A stretch of 40,067 nt of DNA from a virus. The stretch spans positions 1 through 40,067 of the IMG/VR virus record IMGVR_UViG_3300043331_000538; one strand, given 5' to 3'. Shown piece after piece: positions 1-32,893 of this stretch (position 1 is the stretch's first letter; every line of letters starts with the position of its first letter). The translations under genes and the position numbers were made by a program. The notes under the pieces were generated by a model that worked only from the letters and a program-made list of their open reading frames with translations, had not been told where the DNA came from and did no database searches.

Positions 1-392
1 AGATCTGCAGTTTTTTTGCCGCGATCGTCTAGCCCTTCGCGTTTTAACACTGCAGCATGTAAAGTGTTATGCAGCGCGGTTGTGGCTGCGTCTGTTGTCT
101 TATTCCAGCGAAAGCTTTCAAAGCCTTTTGCGCTCGCTGCGCCGCTGTTAATGTGAATAGATACGCAAATATCAGCGCCCCACGCGTTTGCTGCGTTGCT
201 GCGATCGTTTAATGAAGGATATGTGTCCCCAGTGCGCGAAAGCTTCACGTCTGCCCCTTCGTATTCGTTTAAAAGTATGTCGCGCGTTTTTAAAGAGATC
301 TGCAGCGTGACGTTTTTTTCTTGTAGTCCGTTTCCAGACGCCCCCGGATCTTTGCCGCCATGTCCCGGATCTATAAAAACTTTTTTAACCAT
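1..392 (-). CDS. N-acetylmuramoyl-L-alanine amidase (endolysin), cut by left window edge
   Basis: Reading leftward from an ATG at 392, the frame is open to base 1 for 130 codons. The N-terminus carries the Amidase_3 zinc motif DPGHGG (residues 8-13), the second ligand E25 in GLQEKN and the third ligand H80 in SIHIN, in the family's order and spacing. The last catalytic Glu and any cell-wall-binding domain lie outside the window. It would cut the amide bond between MurNAc and L-Ala in peptidoglycan at lysis. The ribosome-binding site AGAAGGGG stands 8 bases before the start. No signal peptide is visible, so release through the holin encoded just upstream (444-746) is expected. Family assignment is firm. 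Confidence 0.92.
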   Translation of the reverse strand, partial: MVKKVFIDPGHGGKDPGASGNGLQEKNVTLQISLKTRDILLNEYEGADVKLSRTGDTYPSLNDRSNAANAWGADICVSIHINSGAASAKGFESFRWNKTTDAATTALHNTLHAAVLKREGLDDRGKKTAD

Positions 393-443: not shown

Positions 444-746
444 TTAAATAGTCGGATCATCTGTTTTGTCCGGCGTTATTGCATGCGCGGTGCTTTTTGT
501 CGCGCTATAAAGTCCGCTGGCTGATAATCCATAAAGTATGCCAGATAAGATCGTGCCGCCTATGCTGCCAGTCGCGTTGGCTGTCGTGATAAAAGAGATC
601 AGCACGCCCAGTCCTAGACTGATAAAAGGCGCGAATTTTTCCATTTTCGGCGATAACATTTTAAAAAGTTGTGTGATTGCTACTACGATAGGCACTGCGG
701 CGGCGTTGTTTACTACGTCCGCGCTTGATAGAAAAGATAGATCCAT
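444..746 (-). CDS. Holin-like small membrane protein
   Basis: This 100-residue protein has hydrophobic stretches near residues 12-30, 38-56 and 62-82 and a short polar tail, fitting a phage holin that opens the cytoplasmic membrane for the endolysin. It lies directly upstream of the amidase and its start overlaps the stop of the preceding BhlA-like gene, so lysis functions are grouped at the distal end of the late operon. The repeated SIGGTILSGILYG-type small residues in the last segment suit helix packing in a pore. I rely on size, hydrophobicity and position; no diagnostic holin motif is visible. Confidence 0.7.
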   Translation of the reverse strand: MDLSFLSSADVVNNAAAVPIVVAITQLFKMLSPKMEKFAPFISLGLGVLISFITTANATGSIGGTILSGILYGLSASGLYSATKSTAHAITPDKTDDPTI

Positions 747-997
747 TATTCTTTCCGCCTTTCCAGTTCTTTGTCGATAAATACTTTCCAGATCGTAAGC
801 ATGGTTTTAAGATCGTTTCGCACTTCGCCGATTTGTTCTTGAATTTCTTTTTGCAGCTGATCATATTTCCGCGTCTGGCGTGCTTCGCGGATCCTGCTTT
901 CTCGTATATAAAAGATAAACAGGATCATAAAAAGCAGCGCGAAAGGCGTTTCACTTGTCGAAAATAGCTGGATAACTTCTTTAAAAAATTGATCCAT
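746..997 (-). CDS. BhlA/UviB-like holin or holin-related membrane protein
   Basis: The 83-residue protein has one transmembrane segment near residues 16-32 (PFALLFMILFIFYI), then RES and a charged helical tail with a coiled-coil look (QLQKEIQEQIGEV). An N-terminal anchor, an R-E pair just after the membrane and a basic C-terminal helix are the pattern of the BhlA/UviB bacteriocin-holin family. It overlaps the next gene by one base and stands between the tail-tip gene and the second holin, so the two probably act together, as holin and partner, in lysis. The split of roles between them is inference. Confidence 0.68.
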   Translation of the reverse strand: MDQFFKEVIQLFSTSETPFALLFMILFIFYIRESRIREARQTRKYDQLQKEIQEQIGEVRNDLKTMLTIWKVFIDKELERRKE

Positions 998-6012: not shown

Positions 6013-6303
6013 TTAATAAAACGCCTTTTGTTTATTTTCTGTTGGTTTCAGATCGTTGATCATGCTTGTTTCGTAAATTTCGCGCTGGTATGGATCCGCA
6101 ATATAGCAGACTGCAAAAAATTTGCTGCCGCTGATCTCTGACATGCTTTGTGGTATGCGCGTTTTAAGATCGTCACTTTGTCCCACATAAAGCAGCTTGT
6201 AGTCTTGATCATAAAGCAGATAAATGCCGCCTTTAAGGCTTTCGATTTGTTCCAGATCGTCTGTCGCTGGCGTTGGTTCTGGATTGCTTATGTTTATAGT
6301 CAT
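6013..6303 (-). CDS. Small GIY-YIG nuclease-domain protein
   Basis: From ATG at 6303 the product has 96 residues. G26-I27-Y28 and Y39-V40-G41 form the GIY and YIG halves, R49 follows in DLKTRI, E78 is the metal-binding Glu in YETSMI, and N90 closes the LKPTEN motif, so the catalytic set looks complete. No DNA-targeting domain is fused. GAAAGGAAG stands 7 bases before this ATG, which is why I prefer it to the ATG 39 bases further upstream. The gene lies between the distal tail protein and the tail-tip protein. A free-standing homing-type nuclease or an anti-competitor nuclease are both possible; the domain call is firm, the role is not. Confidence 0.8.
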   Translation of the reverse strand: MTINISNPEPTPATDDLEQIESLKGGIYLLYDQDYKLLYVGQSDDLKTRIPQSMSEISGSKFFAVCYIADPYQREIYETSMINDLKPTENKQKAFY

Positions 6304-6406
6304 CTTCTTCTTCCTTTCTGATTCGATACATAGCATATACAATGCAGCAAAAGATCAGAAAAGCTGCGCCTATGACACGCAAGCCGCCTGCCCAAAAATC
6401 CCACAT
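6233..6406 (-). CDS. 57-residue membrane protein overlapping the GIY-YIG gene
   Basis: An ATG 3 bases after the distal tail protein stop opens a 57-codon frame (MWDFWAGGLRVIGAAFL) with one transmembrane segment near residues 9-27 and a charged, Ser/Arg-rich tail. The last 71 bases overlap the GIY-YIG coding region in another frame. AGAAAGGT 10 bases upstream can serve as ribosome-binding site. Position and hydrophobic profile support a real gene; the overlap makes it less certain. Function is unknown. Confidence 0.5.
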   Translation of the reverse strand: MWDFWAGGLRVIGAAFLIFCCIVYAMYRIRKEEEDDYKHKQSRTNASDRRSGTNRKP

Positions 6407-6409
6407 ATT

Positions 6410-7189
6410 TTATCTATACCTTTCTGTAAAGTCCACGCGCGCTGTGATCGCATTTGCGCCCAGTCCTGCGCCTGTGACTGTCATAGGATAAGTGCTGCCG
6501 CCTGCAAAGCCTACAAAGCGGCTGTCCATTGAAAGATAAGGCAGCAAAGACACGCCGCTGCTCTCCTTATAAATTTCTGCTTTTTTGGTGTCAATTATGA
6601 AAGCTTCATTTGCATTTAAGGTCAGTCCAGAAAGATAGATCTTTACGCCTGCATAATTTAGGGTAAAATCTGTCAAAGCCACAGGCGGCACGATCCGAAA
6701 AGAAGGAAAAGTCGGCGCTGTGCCGCCATTAGTCAAGGTCAAAGCATTGCTAGTGAAAAATAGCTGCCGCGCTGTGTCTGAATATGCCCACGCTTCCGGC
6801 GCTACAAATTCCAGCGTCACTTCGCTGATCGCTGCTTCTTCGTCCAGTTCGGTGCTTCCACGAAAAAAACTTTTATAGATCCTGTTTTTTTCGTCCGAAA
6901 AATAAAGATCTTTGGCTGTGCCATCTACATTCGCATTATAAAGCCAGACTGCGATCGTTCGGATCTTTGATCTAAGATCTATTAAGTCATTTCCAAAGAT
7001 CGCAAAGCCTATTTTAAATTCAGCTGCCCCCACGTCACGAAAGGCGCCAGCTTTTTGCGGTATATAAATTCCAGTCCGGCGCGGCACTTTTACTTCTATG
7101 TTGTCAAGATCCGGCAGCATAGTGCGTTCGATCTTTGTTACATAGCCATAAGTCCGGCTGTCCACGCCATTAAAAAAGAAATAGCGCAT
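6410..7189 (-). CDS. Distal tail protein (Dit family)
   Basis: The 259-residue protein begins MRYFFFNGVDSRTYG, the usual opening of Sipho_tail/Dit proteins, followed by a belt-type beta domain and a C-terminal galectin-like half (FVAPEAWAYSD near residue 128, then SFRIVPPVAL and LTLTNGG). Dit forms the hexameric hub joining the tail tube to the tip and receptor-binding device. It directly follows the tape measure gene, overlapping by one base, and precedes the tail-tip protein, the order seen in many siphophages of low-GC Gram-positives. Length is normal for the family. Confidence 0.88.
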   Translation of the reverse strand: MRYFFFNGVDSRTYGYVTKIERTMLPDLDNIEVKVPRRTGIYIPQKAGAFRDVGAAEFKIGFAIFGNDLIDLRSKIRTIAVWLYNANVDGTAKDLYFSDEKNRIYKSFFRGSTELDEEAAISEVTLEFVAPEAWAYSDTARQLFFTSNALTLTNGGTAPTFPSFRIVPPVALTDFTLNYAGVKIYLSGLTLNANEAFIIDTKKAEIYKESSGVSLLPYLSMDSRFVGFAGGSTYPMTVTGAGLGANAITARVDFTERYR

Positions 7190-9270
7190 TATAAGTTCCC
7201 CCTATTCACTAGACCGCCTGTGCGTGCTGCTCTTTTCGCCAGTGCCTTGTCCAGATCTGCTATGATCGCGCGCAATATTTCGCGATTATTGAGGAAAACA
7301 GGCACTTCTAGCCGCGTTGTGCCTGCAGCTGCAGCTGTGCCGCCGCCTTGTAGTCTTGCGATATTTTCCGCGATCGCGGTTGCAAAAGGCTTGAAATATT
7401 TTCGATTTTCCAAAGGAATGATCGCTTCGCGTCCTTTTTCGCCGATTCCCACAAGTTCCGGCTGATCGAAAAGTCCCCCTTTTGCACGCCAGCCGCCGAA
7501 AGATATTTTCGGATAAGGAATAGACACGCCAGCCATTGTCTTGTGTCCTACTCCTACATTAACGATCGGTATTTTCGGCTTTGGTATTTTTAGCACTAAG
7601 CTTGTAAATAGCCTTTTTATGCTGTTTACAATTCCGCTGATCGTGCTTTTTGCGCTGTTTAGCGGTTTTTCCATAGCGCTTTTTATTCCGTTAAAAATTG
7701 TTGTCACTGTGGATTTTATAGCGCCAAAAACTGACGTAAATATGGATTTATAAAAATTAAAAACTGTTGTAAAATACGATTTCAAACCGTTAAAAACTGT
7801 CATTGCTGCAGATTTTATGCCATTTATGATCGGCGTAAATACTGCTTTTATGCCATTCCATGCGATCGTCCAAAGCGCTTTGATCATGCCCATAGTCGCA
7901 GATATAAAAGTTTTGATCGCGCCCATATTTGCCATGATCGTGCGCAATAGCCAGCCGAAAGGCGTCCAGTTTAAAATAAAAGTTCCCACTGCAGCAAATA
8001 CAGCTTTCACGCCTTCCCAGAAAGCAGAAAGCCACGCGGTAAACGCTGCCCAGCCTGCTTGTATTGCAGGAACAAAGCTTAAAAAGTAATTTTTGATACT
8101 ATCCCATGCAGTTTTCAGCCATGCCACGACTTGATCCCAGTGTGTATAAAGCGCCACGCCTATTGCGATCAGCGCCACGACTGCAGCTGCTACGATCCAG
8201 ACTGTAGCTGACATGGCAGCCAGTCCAGTGATCAAAGGCATGATCAGCGGCGCCACTGCGCCCCACGCCAGTAAAAATCCATTTATTAGTCCGGCGCCAG
8301 CTGCCAGCGGTGCAAGCAGCAGCGTAAGCACAGGAATAAGCATTAAAAAGCCAGCGATCATCTTTGATAACAAAGGGTGTGCTTGATTAAATTTGTCGAT
8401 CAGCTGCGCCAGCCATGTTATGAAATTGTAAACAGGCACAGCAGCTGCGATAAATACATCTACAAAAGGCTGTGCGGCTTTTTTCAAAGCAGCTAACATG
8501 TTATTCCATGCAGCAGCATATCCGGCGTTTGCCATTGCAGCATTATGCAGTCCGCTGATCATTAATCCAGTGCCGATCGCTGCTACCATAGCCACAGCGC
8601 CCATGCGCATGATCCCTTGTGTCAATGTCCCTGTTAAGCTTTGCAGATCTCGCATGCTCGCAGTCGGACCAAGCATGCGCAATGCGACCGCGGCTGGCGT
8701 TCCTAAGTGTGCAAGGTGTTCCATATTGCTGCTGATCCGCAAAAGTCCGTTATTTACTTGATAAAGCGGATTCTGCATGCGGTTGTATTGTTTAATTATG
8801 TTTTCTGACTGTGTACTCATTGCCAGCGCTGCAGCTATGCCCTGCAGAAAAGACATGCGCGCCATGCGGTTGTTACTCATCATATTTTGACTGATCGTCC
8901 GCTGCTGCCGCCCCAGTTCTTCCAGCCTGTGAAAAAGATCCTGTGTGGATCCAGACCAGTTTTCTGTTTCGCCTGCTAGATTCCAGAAGTCGCGCTGCAC
9001 TCCCATTAATTCTTGTCTAAAAGGTGCAAGCGTTGCGCGCTGCTCTCGCATTAATTGGCGCATTTCTTGTCGCATGTGATAAACGCCGCGCTCTGCTTCT
9101 GTCATACTTGCATAACTTTGACGCCCTACTCTGAAAGTTTCAGATCCAAAGCGTTCCATTTGTCTGCTGGCTGCATTTGCGTGACTGCCGATCCCGTCCA
9201 GCCCAGAAGCTACGCGATCCGCGCCATCAAGCGCCACGCGCCCTATAAGACTAAACGCTTCAAGTGCCAT
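7189..9270 (-). CDS. Tail tape measure protein
   Basis: The 693-residue protein has an N-terminal helical region with Gln/Arg/Met-rich coiled coil (about 60-170), strongly hydrophobic segments at about 210-370, a run of repeated W-x-aromatic helices at about 390-560 (motifs such as NGIKSAM, SIFTSVFGAIKS) and a C-terminal segment GIGEKGREAIIPLE that is typical of tape measure proteins. At about 0.15 nm per residue it predicts a tail near 100 nm. It lies between the chaperone pair and Dit as expected. No peptidase or transglycosylase motif was seen. Confidence 0.9.
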   Translation of the reverse strand: MALEAFSLIGRVALDGADRVASGLDGIGSHANAASRQMERFGSETFRVGRQSYASMTEAERGVYHMRQEMRQLMREQRATLAPFRQELMGVQRDFWNLAGETENWSGSTQDLFHRLEELGRQQRTISQNMMSNNRMARMSFLQGIAAALAMSTQSENIIKQYNRMQNPLYQVNNGLLRISSNMEHLAHLGTPAAVALRMLGPTASMRDLQSLTGTLTQGIMRMGAVAMVAAIGTGLMISGLHNAAMANAGYAAAWNNMLAALKKAAQPFVDVFIAAAVPVYNFITWLAQLIDKFNQAHPLLSKMIAGFLMLIPVLTLLLAPLAAGAGLINGFLLAWGAVAPLIMPLITGLAAMSATVWIVAAAVVALIAIGVALYTHWDQVVAWLKTAWDSIKNYFLSFVPAIQAGWAAFTAWLSAFWEGVKAVFAAVGTFILNWTPFGWLLRTIMANMGAIKTFISATMGMIKALWTIAWNGIKAVFTPIINGIKSAAMTVFNGLKSYFTTVFNFYKSIFTSVFGAIKSTVTTIFNGIKSAMEKPLNSAKSTISGIVNSIKRLFTSLVLKIPKPKIPIVNVGVGHKTMAGVSIPYPKISFGGWRAKGGLFDQPELVGIGEKGREAIIPLENRKYFKPFATAIAENIARLQGGGTAAAAGTTRLEVPVFLNNREILRAIIADLDKALAKRAARTGGLVNRGNL

Positions 9271-9690
9271 TTAATCACGTCCTTGCTGCTTGTCTAGCTG
9301 TCTGATTTGATCTGCTGTAGAAAGCGCGCTTTTGATCTGCGCTTCTTTGGTTATATTGGATCTTGATTCTTCTTTTTTGCTTTGCAAGCCTAGCTTTTTG
9401 ATATAATCTGCAAAAGATAGCGGCTTTGCGTTTTCACTCGCAATAAGCTTGATCACTTCGATTATTTGCCACGCATTATAAGCCTGCAGCACATAGTCTT
9501 TGCGTGCTTCGTCTTCATATGCTTCCATGACTATTGCCAAAATTTGAAGAAAGCGCGCTGCTGATAGATCAAATACGATCTGATCTGTCCAGCTATAGCG
9601 CGCTTGTATAAGGTCTATCGCTTTGGCAAAATTTCTTGTATCATGGATTTCGCTTCTTGCAAAAAATCTTGAAAGTCCGCGTTTTTCCAT
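9271..9690 (-). CDS. Tail assembly chaperone, frameshift extension (T part)
   Basis: This frame lies at -1 relative to the upstream chaperone gene and overlaps its last 76 bases. It is probably not started at its own ATG (9690) but reached by a -1 slip at 9660-9666, giving a fusion of about 245 residues: 116 from the upstream frame and 129 from here. The region includes ARSEIHDTRNFAKAI and a charged helical C-terminus ending RQLDKQQGRD. By analogy with lambda G and GT, the longer form links the tape measure to tail tube subunits. The tape measure gene starts just downstream. Confidence 0.75.
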   Translation of the reverse strand: MEKRGLSRFFARSEIHDTRNFAKAIDLIQARYSWTDQIVFDLSAARFLQILAIVMEAYEDEARKDYVLQAYNAWQIIEVIKLIASENAKPLSFADYIKKLGLQSKKEESRSNITKEAQIKSALSTADQIRQLDKQQGRD

Positions 9691-10007
9691 AGCTGTTTAA
9701 AAGCTTTGATCGGATAGCTGAAAGGCTTTTTCGCTAATTCTTCCGGCGTTTGATCCGTCACATGTGCAATAAATTCCTTGATCTCTGTTGGTATGTGCTT
9801 GATCACTGAAAGCATGATCGTAAAGCCCATAGTACGATCTGACATATTTTCCGCACTTGTCTGCGCGATTTTTTCTGCAGCTGTGCCGCTGACTTTTTCC
9901 ATGATCTCTGAAAGCTTGAAAAGGTCGTCTGCGTTTAGATCGCGGATTTGCACTTCGTTTGTCGCTGCAGCTGCTGCTGGCTGCGTTACTTTTTCTAGTT
10001 CTGCCAT
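9615..10007 (-). CDS. Tail assembly chaperone, short form (G part)
   Basis: The 130-residue mostly helical protein (MAELEKVTQPAAAAATNEV) has a core VQIRDLNADDLFKLSEIM followed by helices rich in I, E and K, a pattern usual for the first tail assembly chaperone of Gram-positive siphophages. It follows the tail tube gene and precedes the tape measure. Its stop at 9615 lies 45 bases after the slippery site, so most ribosomes give this short form and a minority continue into the -1 frame. Sequence identity to a named family cannot be judged by eye; position and frameshift layout support the call. Confidence 0.78.
   Translation of the reverse strand: MAELEKVTQPAAAAATNEVQIRDLNADDLFKLSEIMEKVSGTAAEKIAQTSAENMSDRTMGFTIMLSVIKHIPTEIKEFIAHVTDQTPEELAKKPFSYPIKAFKQLWKNADFQDFLQEAKSMIQEILPKR
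9660..9666 (-). promoter_or_regulatory. Slippery heptamer for programmed -1 frameshift
   Basis: On the minus strand the heptamer is T-TTT-TTG in the zero frame (codons 115 and 116 of the upstream chaperone). Slipping back one base still lets both tRNAs read TTT. It lies inside the overlap of the two chaperone frames, exactly where the -1 frame is open. Confidence 0.65.
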
Positions 10008-10030: not shown

Positions 10031-10627
10031 TTATACTGCTGGCGCTGTTGGCATGCGGATTTCCCATGCTTCCATGAAGCTGCCATCATCTGCAATGTCT
10101 GCAGGATCAATATGTGCAGTGAAAGTCACTTCCAGCGCCACTTCGTTTTCATCTTCCAGCGCTGCTTCTAGTCCGCCTGTTGCCAGTGCGTTGTAAATAA
10201 TGCCTATAAAGTTTTCGCCTGTATTATTTACTTTGCCCACGATCGCAATATTTTTTATATAGTCCATTGTTCCGATCTCGCGGCTGCGGCGGATTGTGTC
10301 ATGCGTTGGCGCTTGCGCCCCTTCTGCAGTCCATGTGCCGATCGTTGATCCAGTCAAAGTCAAAGCCAAATTTTCCGCAGAAAGTTCTAGTAAATTTGTT
10401 TTGATCGTTGCTTCTACTTTTGTGACACGTTTTGTGCCTTTTGCTGCCATTTTTAGTCCGTCTATTTCCATGTCGCGCATTTCTACGTCAATAGTGAAAG
10501 TATTTCCGCCGCGTGTAGCCCCTAGCAGCCTTTCGTCTGTTTCTCCAAAGTTCACATAGACTGCGCCTGCGTCAATAACAAAAGTATTTAAGGATCCTGC
10601 TGTGATTCCTGTTGTACGTTTTGGCAT
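10031..10627 (-). CDS. Probable free major tail tube protein from internal start
   Basis: Same frame as the fusion. ATG at 10627 (residue 370) begins exactly at the domain junction after the proline-rich linker, and AAGGGG lies 8 bases upstream with AGGA closer in. The 198-residue product has a normal length for a siphophage tail tube protein. I infer that this form builds most of the tube and the GH25 fusion is a minority subunit, since some hundreds of tube subunits carrying a 370-residue extension seem unlikely. Confidence 0.6.
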   Translation of the reverse strand: MPKRTTGITAGSLNTFVIDAGAVYVNFGETDERLLGATRGGNTFTIDVEMRDMEIDGLKMAAKGTKRVTKVEATIKTNLLELSAENLALTLTGSTIGTWTAEGAQAPTHDTIRRSREIGTMDYIKNIAIVGKVNNTGENFIGIIYNALATGGLEAALEDENEVALEVTFTAHIDPADIADDGSFMEAWEIRMPTAPAV

Positions 10628-11734
10628 ATTTCCTGCCCCTTCCGTTGGTATTGGATCTGGATCTGGCGGCGGCGGCGGCGCTGGATTGTAGTATGCGTCC
10701 GCTTCTGCCTTTGTTGGAAAGATTAAAAAGTCTTTGACTATGCTTCTGCCAAAGTCTGAATAACTATCTTCGATTACGACTTGCACGCTTACTGTTGTAT
10801 TTCTTGTATAAGCTGTAATGTCAAAAGTGAAAGTTTCCTGCAGATTCGCAGTTTTTGTTCCCCACTTTTTCCATGCGCCATTTATATATAAGTCTGCGCC
10901 CAGATAGTCAATGATATTAGGTCTTGTATAAGTAATAGTGATCGTGTTGTCTGCAGTTTGTTCGATCTTGTCAATAGTAGGCGCTGGCGGCACTAGCAGC
11001 CGATCCAGACTGTCTGTCAAGTTATGATCGACTTGATTCTGCCCATGCGATAAGCCCCACTGATCCGCGTCTGCTGGCACTGCATATTGCCACGCCGCAA
11101 AAGTCGTCCAGCCGCCTAGATTCGCTGGCGAATTTGCCGGATTTGTATTAGCTGGATAATATGTGTCGTATTCTGCCAGCCATAAAGGCATGTTGTTTAG
11201 TTCTGCCAGCTTTGTGTCACTGATCGCCGCTTGTGTGGCGTCCTGCAGAAAATATCTGTTTGAATAAAAGCCCAGCCGCCTGCTTGTGACACTGAAAAAA
11301 TGATCACGAAAGATCTTTACCCAGTTCACTAGCTTGTCGCCTGTCATGCCATAATACATAGGCGCTTGCGGCGTTGTGCTGCCCCAGCTTTCAAGATCCA
11401 GCATTGGCACTATGTCGCCATAGTTTCCAGTCCCATAGCCAGCCTGCAGCCCTGCTATAAATTGATCAGCTTGTGCGATCGCTTCTGCGCCGCCATCTGT
11501 CGCCGGATCCGTTGTCGGCGTTGCAAAATAATAGCCGCCAGACGGTATTCCATTGTTAGCCAGAAGCTGCGCGCGTGTGACAAATTGACTATCTCGCGCG
11601 CTGTGGCTGGATCCATAGCAGCGCAAGATCGCGCATTTGCCCTGCAGCTTACTGATCAGCAGCGCTTGATCGGTGATCCCTTGCAAGCTTGAAAAGTCTA
11701 TAAATTCTATCGTACTGCTGCCACGCGTCTGCAT
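10031..11734 (-). CDS. GH25 muramidase fused to major tail tube protein
   Basis: Residues 1-245 form a complete GH25 lysozyme: D13 in IDFS, GGYYFA near 66-71, the catalytic D113-L-E115 in PMLDLES, FYSNRYF, MPLWLAEYD, WQYAVP and VDHNLTD. Residues about 250-345 look like an Ig/Fn3-type beta domain, then a proline run near 349-358. From M370 (MPKRTTGITAGSLNTF) to 567 the sequence behaves as a phage tail tube protein, including the GEVTF-like LEVTFTAHID end, and occupies the tail-tube position between tail terminator and chaperones. There is no signal peptide. I infer that the fusion puts muramidase domains on the tail; the junction carries its own ribosome-binding site, so free tube protein can also be made. 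The fusion is open in one frame. Confidence 0.85.
   Translation of the reverse strand: MQTRGSSTIEFIDFSSLQGITDQALLISKLQGKCAILRCYGSSHSARDSQFVTRAQLLANNGIPSGGYYFATPTTDPATDGGAEAIAQADQFIAGLQAGYGTGNYGDIVPMLDLESWGSTTPQAPMYYGMTGDKLVNWVKIFRDHFFSVTSRRLGFYSNRYFLQDATQAAISDTKLAELNNMPLWLAEYDTYYPANTNPANSPANLGGWTTFAAWQYAVPADADQWGLSHGQNQVDHNLTDSLDRLLVPPAPTIDKIEQTADNTITITYTRPNIIDYLGADLYINGAWKKWGTKTANLQETFTFDITAYTRNTTVSVQVVIEDSYSDFGRSIVKDFLIFPTKAEADAYYNPAPPPPPDPDPIPTEGAGNMPKRTTGITAGSLNTFVIDAGAVYVNFGETDERLLGATRGGNTFTIDVEMRDMEIDGLKMAAKGTKRVTKVEATIKTNLLELSAENLALTLTGSTIGTWTAEGAQAPTHDTIRRSREIGTMDYIKNIAIVGKVNNTGENFIGIIYNALATGGLEAALEDENEVALEVTFTAHIDPADIADDGSFMEAWEIRMPTAPAV
10625..10641 (-). promoter_or_regulatory. Internal ribosome-binding site at GH25/tail-tube junction
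   Basis: Minus strand reads AAGGGGCAGGAAATATG. Such a strong Shine-Dalgarno directly before an in-frame ATG, at the end of a low-complexity linker, decides for a second start. Confidence 0.65.
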
Positions 11735-11745
11735 TTATTCGCCCC

Positions 11746-12180
11746 CTATACTGGCGGATTTTCGCTGTATTCGATCCAGTTTTTGCGCCAGAAAGCCACG
11801 TCAAAAGCTGTCTGCCAGTGTGTGACTTCCAGCTCTGGATCTCCTATGTTAAGATCTCGCGCATAATAAAAACGCGCTGTATTTTCGTTTTCAACTTCGA
11901 TCGCCAGCTGATCCAGAAGCTTGATCAATCTATTTCGGATCGCTTCTGCATTTATGCTGCCTTGATCTGTGAAAATGTCGAAAGTCGCCAGCGCGTCCAC
12001 TTTGGCAAAGTGATTGCCTTGTCTGCTTGTATGTGTTTGCACTATATATGGCATGGCTGCGTCTTCGTGCGCCCATTGCTCATAGATAGCGGCTGCATTT
12101 GTAAGCGGATCTTTTGCCAGAAGCTGCGCCAGTTCTGTGTCTGCAGTTAAGTGATTATAAATAGCAGTGATAAGGCTCAT
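11746..12180 (-). CDS. Tail terminator/completion protein
   Basis: The 144-residue protein opens MSLITAIYNHLTADTELA and continues with alternating beta strands (DALATFDIFTD, ARDLNIGDPELEVTHWQTAFDVAFWRK), a layout typical of tail terminators (lambda gpU/DUF3168-like), which cap the tube. It lies between the HK97-gp10-like gene and the tail tube gene, the expected place. Assignment rests on order, length and fold pattern rather than on a signature motif. Confidence 0.65.
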   Translation of the reverse strand: MSLITAIYNHLTADTELAQLLAKDPLTNAAAIYEQWAHEDAAMPYIVQTHTSRQGNHFAKVDALATFDIFTDQGSINAEAIRNRLIKLLDQLAIEVENENTARFYYARDLNIGDPELEVTHWQTAFDVAFWRKNWIEYSENPPV

Positions 12181-32275: not shown

Positions 32276-32893
32276 TTATTCTATGATCCTGCCGCCCCAC
32301 ATAAAGCGGCTTTTCGTCCAGCTTCCATTCAGTGTAAAGATCTGCACGTCTTTGCCAGTCCCCAGACTGCTGATCCAGCTTTTCTGTCCATTGTAGACGC
32401 CCATATAAATGCCCACATGTGACACTTTGCCTTTATCCCCAAAAAACATAAGATCCCCTTTTTTGAGGTTCGCCAGTCCGTTTACGCGCGTGCCTGTTGT
32501 GGCTTGTTCCCAGCTGACGCGCGGCAGCTGCACGCCTAGTGCTTCTGAAAAGATATAATGCGTCCATGCGCTGCAGTCCGCCTTGTATGGCACTTTTGAA
32601 AAGTCATTGCCGCCATATACATATTTAGTCACTGGCTTTAATGCCAGCGCTAATTCCACGACTTTATTAGCTGGCGGCGTATCTTCTATGTTTACTTTCT
32701 GTCCTATGTAAAGCTTATTAGGATTTGTGATCTGTGGATTTAATTCCAGCAGCCTAGAAAAATACATGTGTTCATCTTGTGCGATCCGCCAAAGGCTGTC
32801 GCCCTTTTTAACGATATGCTGCGCCGCTGCCAGCTGTGCGCCTGCTGTAAGCATGCAGAAGGCTGCTGCAGCTGCTGTGATCTTTTTAAGCAT
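32276..32893 (-). CDS. Secreted LysM-NlpC/P60 peptidoglycan endopeptidase
   Basis: 205 residues. A signal peptide (KK, then a hydrophobic Ala-rich core) ends near residue 24. LysM spans about 26-69 (HIVKKGDSLWRIAQDEH, NKLYIGQKVNI). NlpC/P60 covers about 76-205 with C107 in ADCSAW and H159 in VSHVGIYMG. It would cut stem-peptide bonds in the wall from outside. It lies among small early genes, not with the lysis genes, and has no operator-type promoter; it may be a lysogenic-conversion gene. AAAAGGAGTG precedes the start. Confidence 0.9.
   Translation of the reverse strand: MLKKITAAAAAFCMLTAGAQLAAAQHIVKKGDSLWRIAQDEHMYFSRLLELNPQITNPNKLYIGQKVNIEDTPPANKVVELALALKPVTKYVYGGNDFSKVPYKADCSAWTHYIFSEALGVQLPRVSWEQATTGTRVNGLANLKKGDLMFFGDKGKVSHVGIYMGVYNGQKSWISSLGTGKDVQIFTLNGSWTKSRFMWGGRIIE

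Follow-up and report, generated by a model that had tools for sequence, protein, structure and literature searches.

The viral record IMGVR_UViG_3300043331_000538 of IMG/VR (positions 1 to 40,067, the whole 40,067-nucleotide stretch analyzed here and called the window below) carries on its minus strand a single 567-codon frame that joins a GH25 muramidase domain, an FnIII/Ig-like domain and a linker to a tail tube protein. Comparison with related contigs leads us to propose, with moderate confidence, that the frame is a tail tube gene with two products, giving muramidase-bearing tubes that would locally cut peptidoglycan during infection. The features on which the argument draws, all on the minus strand, are as follows.

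11746-12180 (-): tail terminator/completion gene, directly upstream of the fusion (PF11367; synteny)
11742-11746 (-): Shine-Dalgarno sequence (GGGGG) of the full-length start at 11734, pairing -11.3
10031-11734 (-): fused gene, GH25 - FnIII/Ig-like - linker - tail tube protein
11081-11701 (-): GH25 muramidase domain, residues 12-218 (Pfam PF01183, E 8e-13)
11696-11698 (-): codon of catalytic-site Asp13, invariant in six homologues
11390-11398 (-): catalytic DxE motif, Asp113-Leu114-Glu115, with D113 and E115 invariant in six homologues
11027-11029 (-): conserved active-site Asp236 (VDHN motif), invariant in six homologues
10715-10987 (-): FnIII/Ig-like domain, residues ~250-340 (profile alignment into the second domain of SleM)
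10628-10714 (-): Pro-rich linker, about residues 341-369, its last codons containing the internal Shine-Dalgarno sequence
10636-10641 (-): internal Shine-Dalgarno-like AAGGGG, 8 nt before the ATG of Met370
10625-10627 (-): internal start codon ATG (Met370), the predicted plain-tube start, where standalone homologues begin
10031-10627 (-): tail tube protein, residues 370-567 (PHROG 885, E 3e-54 for this part alone)
9615-10007 (-): tail assembly chaperone-like gene downstream (PHROG 1021, of unknown function; position)
9271-9690 (-): second chaperone-like gene, in another frame and overlapping the first (PHROG 33493 tail assembly chaperone, E 1e-4)
7189-9270 (-): tape measure protein (PHROG 58, E 5e-38)
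6410-7189 (-): distal tail protein Dit (profile matches)
444-997 (-): two holin-like genes adjoining the amidase (746-997, a BhlA holin above cut-off; 444-746, weak and below cut-off)
1-392 (-): Amidase_3 endolysin, cut by the record end (PF01520, E 6e-33)

The fused frame is confirmed at 10031-11734, where the sequence-only reading had placed it, and the Pfam and PHROG matches to its 567 residues bear out the description given there of GH25, Ig-like domain, proline linker and tail tube in one frame. The gene sits between the tail terminator and the chaperone-like and tape measure genes. That reading had named a separate tail tube gene as evidence that would speak against it; the record was searched and has no tube gene besides 10031-11734, nor any other site matching the GH25 half. 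Neither Rfam matches nor tRNA genes were found in the window. Between the tail genes, at 6013-6342 (-), lies a GIY-YIG endonuclease-like gene, to which a small gene behind the terminase gene of contig L010 (765-1127) looks similar by eye; it is possibly a homing endonuclease and could bear on movement of the module.

When the whole protein is searched, its residues 370-551 match PHROG 885, a family of major tail proteins (E 4e-53). An AlphaFold2 model of residues 370-567, made from 28 sequences, has a mean pLDDT of 84.4, and its best PDB matches in Foldseek are phage tail tube proteins (9jgh, 8ygm and 6xgr; E about 1e-6, TM about 0.5). With a pLDDT of 84 and tail tubes as its best matches, the model indicates that the C-terminal part folds as a tube protein, as had been supposed. 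Family match, fold, gene position and the presence of a single tube gene agree with a siphophage tail tube protein, and a hydrolase domain in the same frame as a tail structural protein is the arrangement of a tail-associated lysin.

The GH25 domain is complete: the Pfam match scores 49.5 bits against a cut-off of 27 and covers profile positions 1-172 of 180, and the acids D13, D113 and E115 noticed earlier are all present and, together with D236, invariant in the homologues compared. In alignment, the DxE motif is matched by LDVET in SleM and by LDIEH in 1jfx. The catalytic acids are intact. A profile of the GH25 and FnIII/Ig-like parts matches SleM (PDB 5jip) along both domains (E 4e-47), while the FnIII/Ig-like part on its own has no Pfam match. 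The module is similar to phage endolysins (PHROGs 291 and 6745), and the lysin of a Paenibacillus plasmid with phage genes shares 31% identity with it and the same MQTR start. The N-terminal half alone had no homologue in the phage collection at E 0.1, and a single-sequence AlphaFold2 model of the whole protein (pLDDT 34) is uninformative for the GH25 and Ig halves.

In the contigs most closely related by their head and tail genes (L009, L030, L031, L048 and others), the tube protein is 45-55% identical to that of the window and is encoded by a plain gene of about 190-200 codons, which has its own Shine-Dalgarno sequence and immediately follows the tail terminator. The identical gene order, again with a plain tube, is seen in annotated phages of Streptococcus, Listeria, Bacillus and others. 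Because these relatives carry a plain tube starting at the equivalent of Met370, the GH25-Ig part is an addition. It also occurs unfused: in L093 a GH25-Ig gene lies between the tail terminator and a plain tube gene, a stop codon separating the two, and in L102 one lies behind the capsid gene. Single-protein searches for relatives found none; genome-contig scans with tube and capsid pairs found none either, and hence no host genome. Two other kinds of unusual tube gene were seen. In L078 and L079 (4986-6314 in each) a 442-residue tube protein has an insertion of ~240 residues after tube-core residue 94, which would be another way to decorate a tube. In L077 (5001-5888) and L076 (2304-3191) a 193-residue tube match is spread over 888 bases and leaves the first frame early, possibly reflecting an intron, an insertion or a frameshift.

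Eight more contig lineages, sampled in other metagenomes, have the GH25-Ig-tube layout, which occurs with two tube families. The 539-residue fusion of L046 and L047 is 46% identical to the window protein over its full length. Searching with the GH25-Ig half yielded L088, L089 and L090, and then L095, L096, L097, L099, L101, L103 and L104, of which L101 and L104 are incomplete (cut off). The tube halves of the fusions belong to PHROG 885 and to the lambda-type family (Pfam TTP_11/TTP_12, PHROG 158), the latter being the partner in L088, L089, L090, L095, L096, L097, L099 and L103. In L046/L047 and in L088, L089, L090, L095, L096, L097 and L099 the fusion lies behind the tail terminator, in L046 with one inserted gene between them. 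A plain tube gene directly follows the fusion in L089 and L103; the records of the window and L099 each span the structural genes and have only one tube gene apiece. Three fusions were tested against 50,697 annotated phages; no phage record reached 80% coverage of any of them, and none of those with PHROG 885 or lambda-type tubes was found to carry the GH25 half.

Several of these contigs have further peculiarities. In L103 (2044-3645) well over 100 residues are inserted into the GH25 domain ahead of its NLGGW motif, and the FnIII/Ig domain has been lost, so that GH25 is joined directly to the tube domain. The inserted gene of L046 (2069-3949) encodes a 626-aa protein with a BppU-type N-terminal domain and tail repeats, far from the usual tail-tip position of such a gene. 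Subtilase (Peptidase_S8) genes stand in the structural clusters of three fusion-bearing phages (L089, 4324-5295; L088, 7859-8332; L106, 7539-8516), the assignment being confirmed by Pfam for L089 and made by eye for L088 and L106.

The junction of the window gene has the AAGGGG and ATG that had been remarked on, and AGGA also lies upstream of Met370 at 10631-10634. With a pairing of -10.7, Met370 ranks first among the 26 in-frame internal start codons. As proof this signal was rejected, since synonymous recoding equals or exceeds it in 13% of cases (P 0.13); the corresponding values are P 0.22 for L046, which has AGGAGG ahead of its internal ATG, and about 1-3% for L088-L090. Because the window signal taken singly is weak evidence, weight is placed on the comparison of nine fusions (the window, L046, L088, L089, L090, L095, L096, L097 and L099). 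In all nine, the codon at the tube boundary is a start codon: ATG in six, TTG (Leu) in two and GTG (Val) in one, no other Val or Leu codon occurring there. The boundary has the strongest Shine-Dalgarno pairing among in-frame internal starts in eight of the nine and the second strongest in the other. The internal Shine-Dalgarno sequence could in part survive from the ancestral tube gene.

Fusions that stand beside a plain tube gene differ in this respect. The fused copy of L103 has GTC in place of the internal start and has lost the Shine-Dalgarno sequence (-3.9); the plain tube gene behind it uses as its Shine-Dalgarno string GAAAGCGAGTTGAAT, nearly identical to the string that in L088 and L090 encodes an AESELN linker and serves as the internal Shine-Dalgarno sequence. 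L089 retains its internal start despite also having a plain tube gene. Taken together, the contigs form a series in which the two-product idea can be tested, from phages with no GH25, through those with a separate neighbouring GH25 gene and those with a fusion and internal start, to those with a fusion beside a plain tube gene.

In a tree of GH25-Ig sequences, the lambda-type fusions L088, L099 and L103 form a group with the window (support 98/97), and L046 falls together with the unfused L093 and L102 (100/100). Constraining the window, L046 and L093 to fall together was rejected (p about 1e-161), as was constraining all lambda-type fusions together (p 0.01), so the module has either moved between tube families or undergone more than one fusion. 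Because the outgroup branch is long, the root of the tree is unsure. We regard as evenly balanced the broader proposition that a mobile GH25-FnIII module has repeatedly been joined in frame to different tube genes, the tube ribosome-binding site being kept, and displays active muramidases along the tail exterior.

The window has a lysis cassette of its own at positions 1-997, where the amidase adjoins the holin-like genes; the GH25 gene stands outside it, among the tail genes. The record opens within the Amidase_3 gene, and a search for end repeats gave none, so it is incomplete at its position-1 end. L099 also carries a separate Amidase_3, and these two amidases led us to reject the idea that GH25 is the sole lysis enzyme. 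With a separate amidase-holin cassette present, GH25 is an additional enzyme, probably virion-borne. Elsewhere in the window (32276-32893, -), the gene for a LysM and NlpC/P60 protein with a signal-peptide-like start lies among small early-type genes, at a distance from the lysis cassette.

Under the two-product model, translation from 11734 would give the 567-residue GH25-FnIII-tube fusion and translation from 10627 (Met370) a plain tube protein of 198 residues; both kinds of subunit would assemble into one tube, and the virion would thus bear muramidase domains tethered to tube subunits that cut peptidoglycan where the tail meets the wall during infection, in the manner of a tail-associated lysin. 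We infer that both starts are used, that the fusion is incorporated into the virion and exposed on the outer face of the tube, that the enzyme is active and that it plays a part in wall entry. Comparison strongly supports the two-product gene that the sequence-only reading had put forward, in that the internal start is conserved and two relatives have a plain tube gene; its suggestion of just a few lysozyme-bearing subunits is unsupported, because the two Shine-Dalgarno sequences are about equally strong (-11.3 for the full-length start and -10.7 for the internal one). The N-terminus of tail tube proteins takes part in ring-to-ring contacts (PMC9022992), for which reason the 370-residue N-terminal extension is the main structural doubt, and mixed rather than fully decorated tubes would be expected.

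These contacts (PMC9022992) also speak against the unlikely alternative that every tube subunit carries a muramidase, the full-length product being the only one and the internal start an unused leftover from the former tube gene. Most fusion records do have one tube gene, the full-length start has a strong Shine-Dalgarno sequence, and the internal ones of the window and L046 are within synonymous expectation, but a silent remnant would hardly be kept as ATG, GTG or TTG in nine of nine fusions across strong divergence, and two relatives have a separate plain tube gene. We consider it equally unlikely that GH25 is an end-of-infection lysis enzyme, for which fusion to the tube simply gives late, abundant expression with no working part in the virion. 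Its resemblance to phage endolysins and to the Paenibacillus plasmid lysin, and the unfused copy behind the capsid gene of L102, would suit such an enzyme; however, a separate amidase is present in the window, beside the holin-like genes, and in L099, related phages without GH25 have an amidase too, and an in-frame bond to the tube, needless for a lysin, is kept on two tube families. Late action as a lysin, one of the roles suggested earlier, is therefore less likely in view of the separate cassette, and the GH25-tube protein would most likely serve in wall entry.

Cleavage of a precursor by a protease into free muramidase and tube protein is improbable: the linkers are often Pro-rich and of variable length, as it might require, yet they show no conserved cleavage motif, and the conserved feature of the boundary is a translation start. 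Least probable by far is that two genes were joined by a sequencing or assembly error. In its favour, the GH25-Ig and tube genes of L093 are unfused neighbours with a stop codon between them, but the identical fused layout recurs in independent contigs from different metagenomes, and the DNA of L046 and L047, from two metagenomes, agrees at 99.96% over 7.7 kb; an assembly artefact was rejected on account of this recurrence, and the worry that the fused frame was a sequencing error is thereby answered.

Both parent ideas of the two-product model, a lysin on a tail protein and a tube of two forms, are known. In SPP1, plain and frameshift-extended tube subunits are mixed 3:1, and decoration domains have been reported on tube exteriors (PMC8718954); some lactococcal 936 phages extend the tube protein by frameshift with carbohydrate-binding modules (TpeX; PMC6669499). 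The window gene resembles SPP1 gp17.1/gp17.1* and TpeX in the proposed production of plain and extended subunits from one tube gene (PMC8718954, PMC6669499). However, the extensions of SPP1 and the 936 phages are outside-exposed, C-terminal, made by ribosomal frameshifting and composed of a binding domain (FN3, CBM) rather than an enzyme, whereas that of the window lies at the N-terminus, shares the tube frame, has an internal start and contains a complete hydrolase; no C-terminal extension by programmed frameshift is present here. As in tail-associated lysins, a peptidoglycan hydrolase domain lies covalently within a tail protein, but the described ones belong to tape measure, Tal/tail-tip, baseplate or spike proteins (PMC10194240, PMC9863714), and the window hydrolase is on the tube protein. 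Gp255 of Bacillus phage vB_BpuM_BpSp is likewise a GH25 enzyme, and was found in virions (PMC4870245); unlike the window enzyme, Gp255 is a separate protein of a jumbo myovirus that has LysM domains and interacts with a baseplate protein (PMC4870245). SleM shares the order of a GH25 followed by an FnIII domain, but is named in the PDB as a cortical-lytic enzyme and is not a phage-tail part. In the open-access literature searched, lysins on a tail tube protein were nowhere described, and neither that literature nor the annotated phages searched showed such a combination of a lysin with a proposed two-form tube.

The usual view is that phages crossing a thick cell wall bring along one or a few lysins, placed at the tail tip or on the tape measure. 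If a full muramidase sat instead on the tube protein, which outnumbers every other component of the tail, this would be a different solution to wall crossing. It would also be a case of natural N-terminal display on a tail tube, where the reviews consulted report only C-terminal or inserted decorations. If the proposal is true, the N-terminally decorated tail would represent both an undescribed class of tail lysin and an undescribed way of making mixed tubes.
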